Of a stretch of 64,000 bases of DNA, positions 2,963 to 10,068 are shown piece by piece. The notes under the pieces were generated by a model that did no database searches, was not told the origin of the DNA, and saw only the letters and a list, made by a program, of their open reading frames with translations. Each line of letters starts with the position of its first letter. The stretch's first letter is position 1. The translations under genes and the position numbers were made by a program. Origin of the DNA: Aggregatimonas sangjinii (GTDB taxonomy: Bacteria > Bacteroidota > Bacteroidia > Flavobacteriales > Flavobacteriaceae); assembly GCF_005943945.1 (NCBI RefSeq), contig NZ_CP040710.1:569001-633000 (forward strand), read 5' to 3'.

Positions 2963-3307
2963 TAGCGTTCTCTTATTTTAAATGGTTGCTAACTCGAATG
3001 TACCAAAATACTATAAATTTCCTACAAATTATCCTAAATAACTCTTTTCAATAGTCTTTAGCCTATATGAAGCGTTTAGAAGCATCCAAAAACCCATTTA
3101 CAGTTCAGTTGCTACAAACAAACATCAAGACAACTACCCTCTCTTGATATCCCCATCAGCATATGGAAACCGAATCGGAAAGCCCATACCGTTCACCCAA
3201 GAACTGGTAAAAACAACCGACTTTCCTTGCTTTTCAATCGGCTGTGGCGTTACTTTGTACCGAATTTGGTGTATACCGGTTCACGAGTTCATAAAAAAGC
3301 TGTAATC

Positions 3308-3423
3308 GTTATCAAGAAAGGTGGAGGGATTAGACCCTATGAAACCTTAGCAACCCTTTACCCTGATGTCCATCAGGGTCCAAGAAGGTGCTACATTCTA
3401 TCCGCCTACGGCGGACAGATAAC
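3308..3423 (+). promoter_or_regulatory. SAM-I riboswitch (S-box)
   Basis: The conserved core is clearly readable: ATCAAGAAAGGTGGAGGGAT, then GACCCTATGAAACC and TTAGCAACC, then AAGGTGCTA. The P1 helix is closed by GTTATC (3308-3313) with GATAAC (3418-3423), and P4 is the TCCGCC/GGCGGA hairpin. S-adenosylmethionine binding would reduce expression of the downstream metH-metH-metF genes. The expression platform is not obvious. A hairpin TTTCCC/GGGAAA near 3487-3502 lies between the aptamer and the ATG at 3549 but has no U-tract. A weak -7-like TTACTTTG lies at about 3249. Confidence 0.93.
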
Positions 3424-3548
3424 CAAAAAAAGACACTAGTCTTACCCTTTTCCCTAACCTTGATACATGATGTTTTAAAGATTCGATTTCCCTTTCGGGA
3501 AACGAGCGAACAATATAGTGAACCCAAAGGAGTTCATAAGTACGACAT

Positions 3549-4599: not shown

Positions 4600-7500
4600 A
4601 TGAAGGAAGATTTGAATATATCGAAAGAAGCGTTTACGGCACCCCCTTCGGGGGCGGGGGGGGCTAGATACTTAAAATTAAGCGGACTGGAGCCTTTAGT
4701 GGTTACTCCCGAGACCAACTTTGTAAATGTTGGGGAGCGAACGAACGTGGCCGGTTCCAAGAAATTTTTGCGCCTAATCAAAGAGCGCAAGTTCGAGGAA
4801 GCCTTGGATGTCGCCCGTGATCAAGTAGAGGGTGGGGCACAGATCATCGATATCAATATGGATGATGGGCTGATCGACGGTAAGGAAGCCATGGTCAAAT
4901 TCCTGAACCTGGTCATCGCCGAGCCGGATATTGCCCGGGTACCCATCATGATCGATAGCTCGAAATGGGAAATCATCGAGGCGGGTTTGCAAGTGGTACA
5001 GGGCAAATGTGTGGTGAACTCCATTAGCCTTAAAGAAGGTGAAAAGGAATTCATACACCACGCCAAATTAATCAAACGCTATGGCGCGGCCGTTATCGTG
5101 ATGGCCTTCGATGAGGTAGGGCAGGCCGATAACTACGACAGGCGTATTGAAATTGCCAAACGCTCCTATGACATTCTGGTCGATGAAGTCGGTTTTCCAC
5201 CGGAGGACATCATTTTCGATTTGAACATTTTTCCTGTGGCCACTGGAATGGACGAGCATAAATTGAATGCAATCGATTTTATCAAAGCCACCAAATGGGT
5301 ACGGGAGAACTTGCCGCACTGTAGTGTTAGTGGGGGGGTCAGTAACGTCTCCTTCTCGTTTCGGGGCAACAACCCGGTACGGGAGGCCATGCATTCGGTC
5401 TTTTTGTACCACGCCATCAAAGCGGGAATGAATATGGGCATAGTGAACCCGACCATGCTGGAGGTATACGATGATATTCCCAAAGATTTATTGGAGCATG
5501 TAGAAGATGTCATGCTCAACCGCAGGGACGATGCCACGGAACGGCTGTTGGATTTTGCCGAATCGGTTGTCGGTACGGCCAAGGAAAGTAAGGTAGACCT
5601 GTCCTGGCGGGAAGAACCGCTTCAGGATCGGATAACCCGTGCCTTGGTAAAGGGTATTGACCAGTATATTGTGGAAGATGTCGAGGAAGCCAGACAGGCG
5701 GCGGACAAACCGATCGAAGTCATCGAAGGCAACCTGATGACGGGAATGAACGTCGTGGGCGACCTCTTCGGAAGTGGAAAAATGTTTTTGCCGCAAGTGG
5801 TGAAGTCCGCCCGAGTCATGAAAAAAGCGGTAGCGCATCTATTGCCGTATATCGAAGAAGAAAAGTTAAAATCGGCCCCCCAACCCCCAAAGGGGGAGCA
5901 GCATTGGGAGACGGCAAATCCTGTGTTATATGGATTGCTTAAAGAGCATGCCAAGCGTATGCGTAACGAGCCCACCCCTGCGGAAACTATGTTGTGGAAT
6001 GCACTAAGTGGAAAAAATTTAGGGGGATACAAATTTCGGCGACAGCATATTATCGGGGAGTACATAGCAGATTTTATCTGTTTGAAACACAATTTAATCG
6101 TTGAAGTTGATGGATTAATACATCAATTGCCGGAAAACAAAAAATCGGATACGGAAAGAACCGAGTGGCTTGAAAACCTTGGATATCGTGTTATTAGATT
6201 TACAAACAATCAGGTATTGACAAATCTCGAAAATGTTTTAGAAGAGATTCACCAAGCGTTATCAGCTCCCCCTTCGGGGGCGGGGGGGGCTGCTGGGAAG
6301 ATATTGATGGCAACCGTTAAAGGGGATGTACACGACATTGGAAAGAACATCGTAAGCGTGGTCTTGGCCTGTAACAATTACGAAATCGTAGATCTGGGCG
6401 TTATGGTGCCGCCGGAAAAGATCATTGCGGCCGCTATCGAGCATAATGTGGATGTCATCGGTCTCAGCGGACTGATTACGCCTTCGTTGGATGAAATGGT
6501 GCATCTCGCCAAGGAAATGGAGCGCAAGAATTTTAGCGTTCCGTTGTTGATCGGTGGTGCGACGACCAGTAAGGCGCATACCGCGGTAAAGATAGACCCG
6601 CAATACAGTCAGGCTGTGGTACATGTTAACGATGCTTCGCGGGCGGTAACCGTAGTCGGTGATTTGTTGCAAAAGGAAACCTCCGATACGTACAAGGAAA
6701 AAATCAAGGAAGATTACGATGTGTTTCGGGAGAAGTTCCTGAAACGCGCCGTACAAAAGGACTATAAAACCCTTGCCGAGGCTCGGAAAAACAAGTTTCA
6801 AATCGATTGGGACACGACCAAAATCGTAAAGCCCAATGAGCTAGGTATACAGGTCATCGAAGATATGGATTTGGAAAAGTTGGTGCCTTTTATCGATTGG
6901 ACGCCCTTTTTCAGAAGTTGGGAACTGCATGGTAAATATCCCGATATCCTAACGGATGATGTGGTCGGAACACAAGCCACCGAATTGTTCGCCGATGCCC
7001 AAAAGATGCTAAAGGAGATCGTCGCGGAAAAGAAACTAAAAGCAAAAGGTATTTTCGGACTCTTCCCTGCCAATACCGTAAACGAAGACGACATTGAGGT
7101 CGACCTTTCTCCCTATTTGGGGGAGATGCCCAAAGGGCAGGCCGGGCCTTTAAAGGATAATAATAGCGGCGATAACTCCACCTCTTTGGGGGGAGGCCGG
7201 GAGGGGGCCATTTTTAGAACCCTTCGCCAACAATTGCAACGCAGGGAAGGTGTGCCGGATTATGCCTTGGCCGATTTTATCGCACCGAAGGCATCGGGGA
7301 AAGAGGATTATATCGGCTGTTTTTGTGTTTCCACGGGATTCGGAACCGCCGAACTGGCCGCGCAATATGAAAAGGAGTTGGACGATTACAGTTCCATACT
7401 GATCAAGGCCTTGGCCGATCGTTTGGCGGAGGCCTTTGCGGAGTATTTGCACAAAGAGGTACGTATGAATCACTGGGGCTATGCGGCGGATGAGGATTTG

Positions 7501-7818
7501 AGCAGCGAGGAGCTGATCAACGAATCGTACAAGGGCATTCGGCCGGCACCGGGCTATCCCGCCTGTCCCGACCATTTGGAGAAATTGACCATTTGGGAAA
7601 TGCTACAGGTCGAGGAAAAGATAGGGGTGAAACTAACGGAGAGTCTGGCCATGTGGCCGGCAGCTTCGGTAAGTGGCTACTATTTCGGCAATCCCGAAGC
7701 CCGGTATTTCGGACTTGGAAAAATCAAGGAAGACCAGGTCGCCGATTTTGCTAAGCGAAAGGGAATCCCTGTAGAGGAAGCGACCAAGTGGCTCGCTCCG
7801 AATATCGCGGATGATTAA
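4600..7818 (+). CDS. metH: Methionine synthase, folate/B12/activation modules with an in-frame DUF559 insertion
   Basis: 1072 residues. Order: repeat-derived N-terminal tail (APPSGAGGA, 14-22); pterin-binding domain ([13 protein letters not shown]); B12 cap helices ([14 protein letters not shown]); a roughly 140-residue insertion (426-565) holding a complete DUF559 nuclease-like domain; B12-binding Rossmann domain with DVHDIG (cobalt-ligand His) and [13 protein letters not shown]; and the SAM-binding activation domain with [13 protein letters not shown] second insertion of about 35 residues (835-872) lies in a loop of the activation domain. All other MetH motifs are preserved and the frame is open throughout. 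The insertion sits in the linker between cap and Rossmann domains, so the enzyme may still fold. The product transfers the methyl group from methyltetrahydrofolate to homocysteine. MetF, encoded downstream, supplies the substrate. Confidence 0.93.
4639..4665 (+). repeat. Solo GC-rich palindromic repeat inside metH (N-terminal tail)
   Basis: A CCCCC-TTC-GGGGG hairpin followed by C and a G8 run then CT. It is nearly identical, in the same orientation, to the right boundary of the DUF559 element at 6265-6291. It is translated in frame as APPSGAGGA at residues 14-22 of the second metH gene. Confidence 0.85.
5876..6291 (+). mobile_element. DUF559 nuclease-domain element bounded by inverted GC-rich palindromes, inserted in metH
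   Basis: The left boundary at 5876-5900 (C6-AA-CCCCCAAAGGGGG-AGCA) and the right boundary at 6265-6291 are inverted copies of one palindromic repeat. Between them the metH frame encodes a complete DUF559 domain (residues about 442-553) with [35 protein letters not shown] and [16 protein letters not shown]559 belongs to the PD-(D/E)xK/Vsr-like nuclease group, and the acidic residues in ADF and VEVDG are retained. The 416-bp unit is absent from canonical MetH, where the linker here is only about ten residues. It looks like a translationally silent, intein-like or homing-type insertion, but it has no self-splicing motifs. Whether it is mobile is inference. Confidence 0.7.
7105..7207 (+). repeat. 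Palindromic repeat copies coding for an extra loop in MetH
   Basis: CTCCC-TATTT-GGGGGAG at about 7105-7121 and CTCCACCTCTTTGGGGGGAG at 7176-7195, followed by GCCGGGAGGGGG. They resemble the other G/C-run palindromes of this window. They encode about 35 extra residues (about 835-872) in the activation domain, between GLFPANTV and the TLRQQ segment, which are nearly adjacent in E. coli MetH. Confidence 0.6.
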
Positions 7819-7830
7819 GTCCCTTGCCTG

Positions 7831-7894
7831 ACCCCCAAAAGGGGGAATAGGTAGCTGATTTTCTCCCTCCCTTATGTGGAGGGTCGGGGCGGAG
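7831..7894 (+). repeat. Pair of solo GC-rich palindromes downstream of metH
   Basis: ACCCCCAAAAGGGGGA (7831-7846) and CTCCCTCCC-TTATGT-GGAGGG plus a G-rich tail (7863-7894) are two copies in opposite orientation, arranged like the ends of the DUF559 element but without the nuclease between them. The second is followed by GTTTTTT and could terminate transcription. The rest of 7895-8059 holds an imperfect inverted repeat (AGCTGTC/GACAGCT near 7936-7965) and no gene. Confidence 0.6.
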
Positions 7895-8059
7895 TTTTTT
7901 GCGTTAGGGATAGAGGCATTGTTGGAGCTCTTTGTAGCTGTCTCGAACGCAGTGTAGCGACAGCTGCGAAAGCGACTGCCGAAAGCCCGGTGGGCCGTCA
8001 GGCGGAAACGCCCAAATGAAAATAGAATAAAATACTAATTAATATCGACCCGAGTAAGA

Positions 8060-8084
8060 GTCCTCTTTGGGGGGCTAGGGGACC
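8060..8084 (+). repeat. Solo palindrome forming the metF upstream region
   Basis: GTCCTCTTTGGGGGGCTAGG followed by GGACC, another copy of the same family. It ends 3 bp before the metF ATG, so the repeat supplies the translation-initiation region of metF. Confidence 0.6.
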
Positions 8085-8087
8085 ATT

Positions 8088-9041
8088 ATGAAAATTACAG
8101 ACCACATTAAAGAAGCCAAGGGGGAAACCTTGTTTTCGTTTGAAATCATACCCCCGGTAAAGGGGCATAAGATTCAGGAACTATACGATAATATCGATCC
8201 GTTAATGGAGTTCAAACCTCCGTTTATCGATGTGACGACCTCTCGCGAAGAATACGTTTATATTGACCGTAATGGCTTGCTGGATAAGAAGTTGACCCGT
8301 ATGCGCCCGGGTACGGTGGGCATTTGCGCATCGATCAAGCACAAATACGATGTAGACACCGTACCGCACGTGCTTTGCGGCGGTTTTACCAAAGAGGAGA
8401 CCGAGTATGTATTGGTCGATTGCCAGTATCTTGGCATCGATAACGTCATGGCGCTGCGTGGCGATGCTATGCGGGAAGAAAAATATTTTCAACCGGCGGA
8501 AGGAGGACACGAATACGCGATCGGACTGGTGGAACAGTTAAACGACCTGAATTGTGGCAATTACCTTCACGATACCATGGAGGGTACCAATTGTGCCGAT
8601 TTTTGTATCGGCGTTGCCGGATATCCCGAAAAGCATTTGGAAGCCCCATCATTGCAATCGGACTTGAAACGCCTGAAGGAGAAAGTAGATGCCGGTGCCC
8701 ATTATATCGTAACACAGATGTTTTTTGATAACAAGAAATACTTTGAATTCGTGGATGCCGCAAAGGCAATGGGAATAGACGTGCCCATCATCCCGGGAAT
8801 CAAACCGATAGCGGTAAAACGGCATTTGAACTTGTTGCCACAGGTGTTTCGAATCGATATTCCTCAAGATCTGATCGATGCGGTCGATGGCTGCGAGAAC
8901 AACAAAGCGGTGCGCCAGGTCGGGATTGAATGGGCGATTCAACAATCTAAAGAGCTAAAAGAAGCCGGTGTTCCGGTTTTACACTACTACTCCATGGGCA
9001 AGTCGGATAATATTCATGCAATCGCCTCGGCCTTGTTTTAG
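8088..9041 (+). CDS. metF: Methylenetetrahydrofolate reductase
   Basis: 317 residues, the normal length for MetF. It contains the family opening FSFEIIPPVKG, TSREEY in the substrate/FAD region, ALRGD, and the typical ADFCIGVAGYPEKH segment followed by VTQMFFDN and IPGIKPI. It reduces 5,10-methylene-THF to 5-methyl-THF using FAD and NADH. The methyl donor is used by the MetH proteins encoded just upstream. It is third in the SAM-I riboswitch operon. A GC-rich palindromic repeat lies directly against its start codon. Confidence 0.96.
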   Translation: MKITDHIKEAKGETLFSFEIIPPVKGHKIQELYDNIDPLMEFKPPFIDVTTSREEYVYIDRNGLLDKKLTRMRPGTVGICASIKHKYDVDTVPHVLCGGFTKEETEYVLVDCQYLGIDNVMALRGDAMREEKYFQPAEGGHEYAIGLVEQLNDLNCGNYLHDTMEGTNCADFCIGVAGYPEKHLEAPSLQSDLKRLKEKVDAGAHYIVTQMFFDNKKYFEFVDAAKAMGIDVPIIPGIKPIAVKRHLNLLPQVFRIDIPQDLIDAVDGCENNKAVRQVGIEWAIQQSKELKEAGVPVLHYYSMGKSDNIHAIASALF

Positions 9042-9412: not shown

Positions 9413-10068
9413 TAAGATACAATACCTCAAACCTCAAACCTCAAACCTCAAACCTCAAACCTCAAACCTCAAACCTCAAACCTCAAACCTCAAACTTCAA
9501 ACTTCAAACTTCGCGCTTCAAACTTCACACTTCAAACTTCACGCTTCAAACTTCTCACCTTGCACTTCGAACCTCGTACTTCGCACTTCAAACTTCACGC
9601 TTCACACTCCGCACTTCAAACTTCCCACCTCGCACCACAAACTTCAAATTTTGCGCTTCGCACATAACACTTCGAGCTTCAAACTTCACGCTTCAAACTT
9701 CTCACCTCGCACCTCGCACTTTGAGCCTCGTACTTCAAACTTCACACCTAAAATATCACACTTCCCGCTTCGCGCTTCGTGCTTCAAACTTCTCACTTCG
9801 CACATCGCACTTCGAGCTTCTCACCTCGCACCTCGCACTTCAAACTTCACACTTCAAGCTTCAAACTTCAGACATCACATATCACACTTCCCACTTCCCA
9901 CTTCCCACTTCGCGCTTCGCGCTTCGTGCTTCGTGCTTCAAACTTCTCACCTCGCACTTCAAACTTCGCGCTTCAAACTTCTCACCTCGCACTTCGAGCC
10001 TCGTACTTCAAACTTCTCACCTCGTACCTTGTAATTCGTATTTCGAATCTTGTATTTCTTCCTTCAAA
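9413..10068 (+). repeat. Long degenerate heptamer array (ACCTCAA / ACTTCRN)
   Basis: Starts with about ten perfect ACCTCAA copies (9424-9494), then about 570 bp of drifted 7-mers such as AAACTTC, GCACTTC, ACGCTTC and TCACCTC. All three frames are largely open only because of the composition, and the translations are TSNF/TSHF-like repeats with no start context, so I call no gene. The 9263-9412 stretch between the two arrays holds no recognised feature. Confidence 0.85.

Follow-up and report, generated by a model that had tools for sequence, protein, structure and literature searches.

A DUF559 nuclease domain with palindromic ends inserted in frame in methionine synthase of Aggregatimonas sangjinii and in other host genes of Bacteroidota

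The methionine synthase gene (metH) of Aggregatimonas sangjinii raises the question of how a nuclease domain comes to lie inside this enzyme, in frame and between inverted palindromes, and whether it belongs to a mobile element. The window analysed here is the whole stretch of 64,000 nucleotides (positions 569,001 to 633,000 of contig NZ_CP040710.1, forward strand), to which all coordinates refer.

The insert in metH and its nuclease

The following features were determined for metH and the insert:

4600..7818, + strand: metH host ORF of 1072 aa with pterin-binding, B12 cap, B12-binding and activation domains (ORF list, Pfam, NCBIfam)
5874..6291, + strand: whole element, consisting of two terminal inverted repeats that enclose an open DUF559 frame lacking a start and stop of its own (two-copy MetH alignments, inverted repeat)
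5874..5899, + strand: left terminal inverted repeat; translated, a Pro-rich linker with predicted disorder (inverted-repeat search, model, two-copy alignments)
5902..6261, + strand: DUF559 (EDxHD/Vsr-like) nuclease domain (Pfam, in-house profile, sequence and fold matches in the PDB)
6264..6291, + strand: right terminal inverted repeat; translated, the Pro/Gly-rich linker APPSGAGG (inverted-repeat search, model, two-copy alignments, fold)

The initial annotation, made from the sequence alone, had placed a DUF559 domain at about residues 442-553 in a linker of MetH. Pfam assigned PF04480 (DUF559) to residues 448-554 with an E of 9.6e-37 and 125.6 bits compared to a cut-off of 20.6, flanked by B12-binding_2 (342-414) and B12-binding (566-659), and the in-house profile covered residues 435-554, corresponding to 5902-6261 of the window. 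The frame, which had been described as open across the insert, is a single one from 4600 to 7818, and the nuclease is read in the frame of the host. The inverted palindromes claimed as boundaries were recovered as arms at 5876-5899 and 6265-6288 (24 nt, 88% complementary). Comparison with MetH genes that carry two copies set the ends at about 5874 and 6291, resulting in a length of about 418 bp. The palindrome core occurs three times in the window compared to 0.03 copies expected from shuffles, and folded as single-stranded DNA, the left arm alone was weak (z -0.59) and the right arm good (z -3.09).

The MetH linker comprises 158 codons in the source genome compared to a range of 22-27 codons for the 27 MetH genes that lack the insert. 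A comparison of empty and filled sites by eye (MetH, IleRS) showed linker codons replaced and no evident target-site duplication; at the MetH site about nine variable host codons seem to be replaced by the insert. In an AlphaFold2 model of the MetH region (28-row alignment, mean pLDDT 80.3, pTM only 0.44), the cap helices, the insert and the B12 domain were all predicted with confidence, and a pLDDT below 50 was obtained only for model residues 94-105 and 225-232, which are the linkers encoded by the palindromes. The palindromic ends are thereby predicted to encode flexible Pro/Gly-rich tethers, so that host and nuclease domains could fold separately.

An intein was ruled out. The absence of intein splicing features stated in the initial annotation was reproduced by Pfam and NCBIfam, which found no Hint family in the metH ORF, where the insert comprises DUF559 and short palindrome-coded linkers; likewise, NCBIfam scans of six host proteins and Pfam scans of 19 gave no Hint or splicing domain. 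An intron was also ruled out, as the Rfam gathering search of the window returned no intron RNA family. Its sole match was a SAM riboswitch, located at 3306-3425 (+ strand) ahead of the metH operon. No known transposase domain was detected by Pfam in the scanned inserts, which yielded DUF559 only. Further upstream of metH (666-1637 and 1707-2836, both - strand) lies what we take to be an ORF resembling a retron-type reverse transcriptase beside an IS3-like transposase pair. An intergenic array of 7-bp units (TCAAACT/TCACACT, 9424-10044) contains as many as 72 copies when counted at a period of 7, with several frames open.

Compared to the PDB, the DUF559 profile matched 3hrl with an E of 5e-29 and the homing endonuclease I-Bth0305I (3r3p) with an E of 3.5e-7. 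The same two entries ranked first in a fold search with the predicted domain (pLDDT 85.3), with values of 8.4e-9 and 6.8e-4; Vsr (1cw0) was obtained at 0.06. Among 127 in-frame copies collected from related genomes (see below), the D-E-D residues were intact in 126 and all six tracked residues in 120. The D-E-D exception is a decayed copy in the LeuRS of genome G011 (L063), which has lost its catalytic residues and palindromes with its frame still open; it is possibly a fossil that has turned into an ordinary protein part. For the five of 22 printed pairs with an insert dS below 1, the insert dN/dS ranged from 0.04 to 0.10. The nuclease is thus under purifying selection, and with values well below 1 a frame artefact was ruled out.

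Host genes, sites and movement of the unit

A search of the source genome (one contig, 4.72 Mb) for further copies, as the initial annotation had proposed, returned eight DUF559 matches, one of them weak. Besides MetH, the domain lies in frame in LeuRS (TIGR00396, 874.7 bits) and IleRS (TIGR00392, 972.7 bits), and four other copies are short free-standing ORFs. The genome contains one match each for LeuRS and the MetH cap and one strong match for IleRS; a second IleRS match (32% identical, E 1.1e-4) was taken for another class I synthetase.

A PF04480 match was present in 41 of 99 relatives. When 397 Flavobacteriaceae genomes were searched with a profile built from 12 in-frame copies, 146 of them matched at E <= 1e-15; the 53 best matches (44 genomes, E <= 3.6e-42) were all located in open frames of at least 573 aa, and the lower-scoring ones among the matches listed mostly in frames of about 90-210 aa. 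Of 395 evenly sampled Bacteroidota genomes, 70 matched at E <= 1e-30, and among the 91 matches listed, 39 were in frames of at least 500 aa and 46 in frames below 250 aa, with a less clean separation by score. The best 80 of at least 578 named loci included Maribacter, Aquimarina, Winogradskyella, Flavobacterium, Marivirga, Tenacibaculum and Bacteroidales, some of them being metagenome bins with a possibly wrong taxon label (e.g. L181, 'Nitrotoga'). Matches in phage (3 of 50,697) and plasmid records (40 of 72,556) all stayed below 60% identity, and the two alphaproteobacterial plasmid copies inspected were free-standing ORFs of 161 and 136 aa. In an Azospirillum plasmid (L361), palindromic-looking repeats (PPPLRRGG..SPAQRGR) are translated in the start region of a free-standing DUF559 ORF, a hint that DUF559 and palindromes may be linked beyond Bacteroidota as well. 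In Prevotella and relatives (L208, L215, L217, L219, L224, L228, L229, L244, L248, L249), copies near the in-frame type are present as free-standing ORFs, and ten of ten Prevotella-type free-standing copies showed significant flanking inverted repeats. An assembly error was ruled out by the recurrence of the same sites and lineages across many independent genomes.

The fetched loci yielded 135 distinct copies when a frame of 330 aa or more was required; by this criterion in-frame copies are selected by construction and out-of-frame insertions would be under-seen. A broken copy represented by two fragments (L272) was dropped and six HemD N-terminal fusions were counted apart, which left 127 distinct copies in frame, distributed over 16 host genes of Bacteroidota. 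At least one member per host gene was named by Pfam or NCBIfam and the others by flank similarity, and sites were grouped by eye:

MetH: 46 in-frame copies, four sites
LeuRS: 27 in-frame copies
RecG: 16 in-frame copies
IleRS: 13 in-frame copies, two sites
MetRS: 7 in-frame copies, two sites
UvrA: 3 in-frame copies
ValRS: 2 in-frame copies
Methylmalonyl-CoA mutase/MeaB fusion: 2 in-frame copies
DegT-type aminotransferase: 2 in-frame copies
HisD (C-terminal): 2 in-frame copies
CinA: 2 in-frame copies
PurL: 1 in-frame copy
Aldehyde dehydrogenase-MaoC protein: 1 in-frame copy
ABC-F ATPase: 1 in-frame copy
Adenine deaminase: 1 in-frame copy
UDP-sugar reductase: 1 in-frame copy

The HemD cases (L273-L277, L028) are in-frame fusions of a free-type DUF559 to the N-terminus in six genomes and form one clade with a support of 99.

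At the individual sites the insert is sporadic. For the MetH linker, 33 loci were tried and 31 could be read; 27 of these were empty, including nine of nine congeners, and the four insert-bearing ones had been picked because the survey of the 99 relatives found the insert there. The initial annotation had named the same insertion in nearly all relatives, with vertical descent, as an argument against recent mobility, and this pattern was not found. The catalytic site of IleRS was readable in 18 of 30 loci, of which 17 were empty (16 codons) and the source genome alone carried the insert. Among 52 genomes read for the LeuRS hairpin (one more was unreadable), seven carried DUF559, including the decayed copy of G011, two carried a palindrome alone, and in 43 the hairpin comprised 15-40 codons, some with other repeat families in frame. 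The LeuRS hairpin before VFTTRPDT (L113-L141, L341-L360) is a flavobacterial hot spot for the in-frame insertion of unrelated repeat families, e.g. of the IASEAKQSH and EFRIQNSEFRIS types.

The absence of palindromes from all other copies, also named beforehand as an argument against recent mobility, was not observed either. Compared to 899 matched placements elsewhere in the same loci, the inverted repeats exceeded the 95% level of these controls at 95 of 127 in-frame copies (75 above the 99% level), at 21 of 32 free-standing copies and at five of six HemD copies; 32 of the 127 in-frame copies showed no significant inverted repeat. The left and right ends were not systematically mutual best partners, which leaves a co-evolution of the ends unsupported: the own and cross means were 15.9 and 13.4 for the MetH linker, 17.6 and 13.0 for IleRS, 14.2 and 13.6 for LeuRS, 15.3 and 14.8 for RecG, 17.6 and 17.6 for MetRS and 21.2 and 22.8 for the second MetH site.

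Direct evidence for movement comes from three MetH genes with two DUF559 copies each (L251, L176, L191). The paired copies of L191 and L251 are 85% and 88% identical in amino acids, and in both pairs the closest relative of one copy is the other. At the DNA level the two copies can be aligned from AGCCCCCC on the left to GGGGGGGGCT on the right, give or take a few bases, with no relationship between their flanks. This end-to-end match defines a mobile unit of about 418 bp that moved together with its ends and spread to a new site. The copies of L176 fall into two separate lineages.

The recurrence at the same sites was also reflected by the domain tree. On a tree of 175 domains (the two L272 fragments and L237 left out, also from its counts), the host-site label changed 34 times compared to 119.8 times in shuffles, although with few columns 71 of the 172 inner branches remain open. 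A tree of 80 named rows gave 27 changes compared to 49.0. On the latter, Chitinophagales copies from MetRS, CinA and adenine deaminase cluster, as do Flavobacterium copies from both MetH sites (support 99), which reads as jumps between genes or sites within lineages.

Altogether, it is probable that the insert is a homing-type mobile element that is translated within its host protein and retained there unspliced, with its palindromic ends serving as linkers.

Palindromes, descent and RNA as alternative explanations

The palindromes also occur without the nuclease, in the window at the following positions:

4639..4661 (core 4639-4654), + strand: solo palindrome of terminal-repeat sequence, in frame near the MetH N-terminus (core search)
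7832..7844, - strand: palindrome just 3' of metH (pattern search)
8058..8080, + strand: degenerate palindrome directly ahead of the start codon of the following ORF, 8088-9041 (pattern search)
7103..7209, + strand: palindrome-like in-frame segments without DUF559 at the second MetH site (by eye; no DUF559 remnant)

The second and third form an inverted pair around the intergenic region after metH. In the source genome, the core CCCCCTTYGGGGG was found in 14 exact copies, several of which adjoin start codons, compared to none for the reversed control. A longer palindrome pattern was present in 64 of 397 genomes, with DUF559-free palindromes being common in some of them (43 matches in G031 and 41 in G058). 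In 20 stretches from three genomes, solo palindromes were located partly in frame within genes and partly between genes. They also occupy sites at which the nuclease is found elsewhere. At the LeuRS hairpin a palindrome alone is present in the congeners G001 and G003, the editing-domain site of IleRS holds DUF559 in L233 and L245 and a short palindrome pair without it in G172, and the second MetH site (7103..7209 in the source genome) carries DUF559 in G262 (L251), L176, L191, L192 and L161.

These observations could be explained by the palindromes being the mobile part, REP- or MITE-like and moved by another enzyme, with DUF559 as a passenger or a defence nuclease copied between them by recombination. 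The spacers of six palindrome pairs, in which no DUF559 remnant was detected (best E 1.9), favour this explanation. Against it, palindromes beyond the elements' own ends follow the in-frame DUF559: they were found in 17 of 44 genomes with such a copy compared to 13 of 353 without (p 1.1e-10, with relatedness ignored), and showed no association with free-standing DUF559 alone in the 397 genomes (p 0.66). Furthermore, the only REP-type (Y1) transposase match in the source genome is weak (26 bits), and its 3.2-kb locus contains no such palindrome. The nuclease is moreover kept intact by selection. This explanation is considered unlikely. For a homing-type element, the nuclease-less palindromes at the same sites would represent non-autonomous relatives.

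Another explanation would be that DUF559 entered long ago and became domesticated as an accessory domain with a role for the host, for instance in DNA repair or regulation, followed by its loss from many lineages. The strong purifying selection on the insert and the degenerate yet open copy in the LeuRS of G011 would agree with this, and so would the clades formed by the RecG and HemD copies (support 80 and 99). For RecG, insert and host identity correlate with 0.78 and in none of 120 pairs does the insert identity exceed that of the host flanks, so that these copies look mostly vertical; IleRS (0 of 55 pairs) gave the same count, and most LeuRS pairs, with three exceeding of 324, appear to fit vertical descent as well. 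For the MetH linker, by contrast to what domestication would suggest, the insert was more similar than its host flanks in 117 of 741 pairs, e.g. with 66-71% compared to 53-57% between Marivirga and Flavobacteriaceae.

The clearest case of a recent transfer is the LeuRS of the congeners G004 and G008, the insert of which is 98% identical as protein with a dS of 0.15, compared to 80% and 0.72 for an upstream host window. The insert itself is identical in 408 of 426 nt (96%). Within about 250 nt of it 426 of 459 nt (92.8%) are identical, compared to 591 of 724 (81.6%) farther upstream (Fisher p 2.7e-8), and against five other genomes the near and far flanks of G004 gave 75-80% and 70-76%. Such a tract of raised identity is as homing would leave it, in this single pair and mostly on one side, with the G008 contig ending just downstream; a second block of high identity lies 740-920 nt upstream. 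Together with the empty linker in all nine congeners of the source genome, two copies within one gene and sixteen unrelated, mostly metabolic hosts, these data make domestication very improbable. As to the mobility proposed in the initial annotation, the movement of the unit is borne out by the two-copy MetH genes, and recent mobility everywhere is not, given the mostly vertical appearance of the RecG copies.

The faintest chance is assigned to a skipping of the insert by the ribosome or its removal from the RNA, for which the paired mRNA ends would bring the exons together: the two ends do pair with each other in the predicted RNA fold, which as a whole is better than that of shuffles (z -3.07), but no intron family was found in the window, in every counted copy the nuclease frame is open and in phase with the host, and the nuclease is under a protein-level selection that bypassing would not require.

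Proposed spread and comparison with known systems

Under the preferred reading of a homing-type element, the unit would sit in permissive loops and domain linkers, and its nuclease would be made by translation of the host gene. The most likely way of spreading would be that empty alleles of the same gene are cut and the element is then copied in by recombination repair. We infer this cutting of empty alleles from the nuclease family, the recurrence at the same sites and the one tract in LeuRS. In addition, the unit occasionally moves to new sites, bounded by its ends. Precise loss would be hard because an imprecise deletion would harm the host gene. The nuclease probably drives the movement, the product probably stays fused and unspliced, and the element is probably selfish. 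Its presence in MetH and fifteen other proteins, several of them essential, points to a way in which a mobile gene can persist, namely by joining proteins which the host needs.

To our knowledge, mobile elements that carry a nuclease within genes are generally thought to need splicing, as introns or inteins, in order to be tolerated. For inteins, this need is stated in PMC11855218. Here, the nuclease appears to be tolerated without splicing by means of permissive loops and its own linkers, even in proteins under constraints as strong as those on aminoacyl-tRNA synthetases. The addition of domains to essential proteins by selfish DNA thereby becomes open to testing, and the element offers a possible function for the 'unknown function' domain DUF559 and for palindromic repeats of Bacteroidota. 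Annotations of MetH, LeuRS or RecG with a DUF559 domain are not assembly errors, and the sites could serve as natural insertion-tolerant positions for protein engineering. A literature search of open-licence papers returned no description of DUF559 inside host proteins.

The catalytic domain is homologous to that of the EDxHD homing endonucleases (I-Bth0305I, PDB 3r3p), and both the sporadic site-specific insertion and the recombination tract of one congener pair are as EDxHD homing would predict. A cyanobacterial DUF559 gene has been placed in this family before (PMC9403480). As described in PMC3943268, known EDxHD enzymes reside in group I introns or are free-standing and possess extra DNA-binding regions, whereas the element comprises a bare domain translated inside a host protein, with palindromic ends and neither a splicing element nor an intergenic location.

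The Rickettsia palindromic elements (RPE) are palindromic units found in frame, and translated, within numerous unrelated protein genes; according to the description in PMC10969869 they comprise about 150 bp and encode a short peptide and no nuclease. Going by this description, the element resembles an RPE as a palindromic in-frame unit in unrelated genes, and differs in that its palindromes bound a conserved nuclease.

Nearest in spirit is the ShiLan domain of phage methylases, a sporadic, homing-like insertion that is open in the host frame, has no intein or intron features and is thought to be retained in the host product (PMC11855218). In contrast to the element, its HNH nuclease is read out of the host frame, and that text contains no mention of palindromes. 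The same report describes a lone LAGLIDADG insertion for which a splicing element was not found and which appears vertically inherited (PMC11855218).

With inteins, the element has in common that nuclease-bearing insertions lie in frame in conserved proteins, are sporadic and recur at the same sites; the Hint or splicing domain is missing and the ends are palindrome-coded linkers instead. With insertion sequences and transposons it shares terminal inverted repeats, above controls in 95 of 127 copies and with exact ends in two genes, without a known transposase domain. REP/REPIN sequences with RAYT as well as MITEs likewise comprise palindromes in inverted pairs and solo copies around the genome. 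Compared to REP and RAYT, the partner enzyme in the present case would be a Vsr-like nuclease and not a Y1 tyrosine transposase.

For the present, the element is filed as a variant of homing and palindromic elements. The chances appear evenly balanced that it represents a class of selfish element in its own right: a nuclease bounded by palindromes, without splicing or translation signals of its own that becomes a permanent host domain, the DNA ends of which double as linkers, and which would colonise many essential genes across the phylum, spread by homing and to new sites, feed nuclease-less palindromes and leave decayed domains behind as new protein parts.
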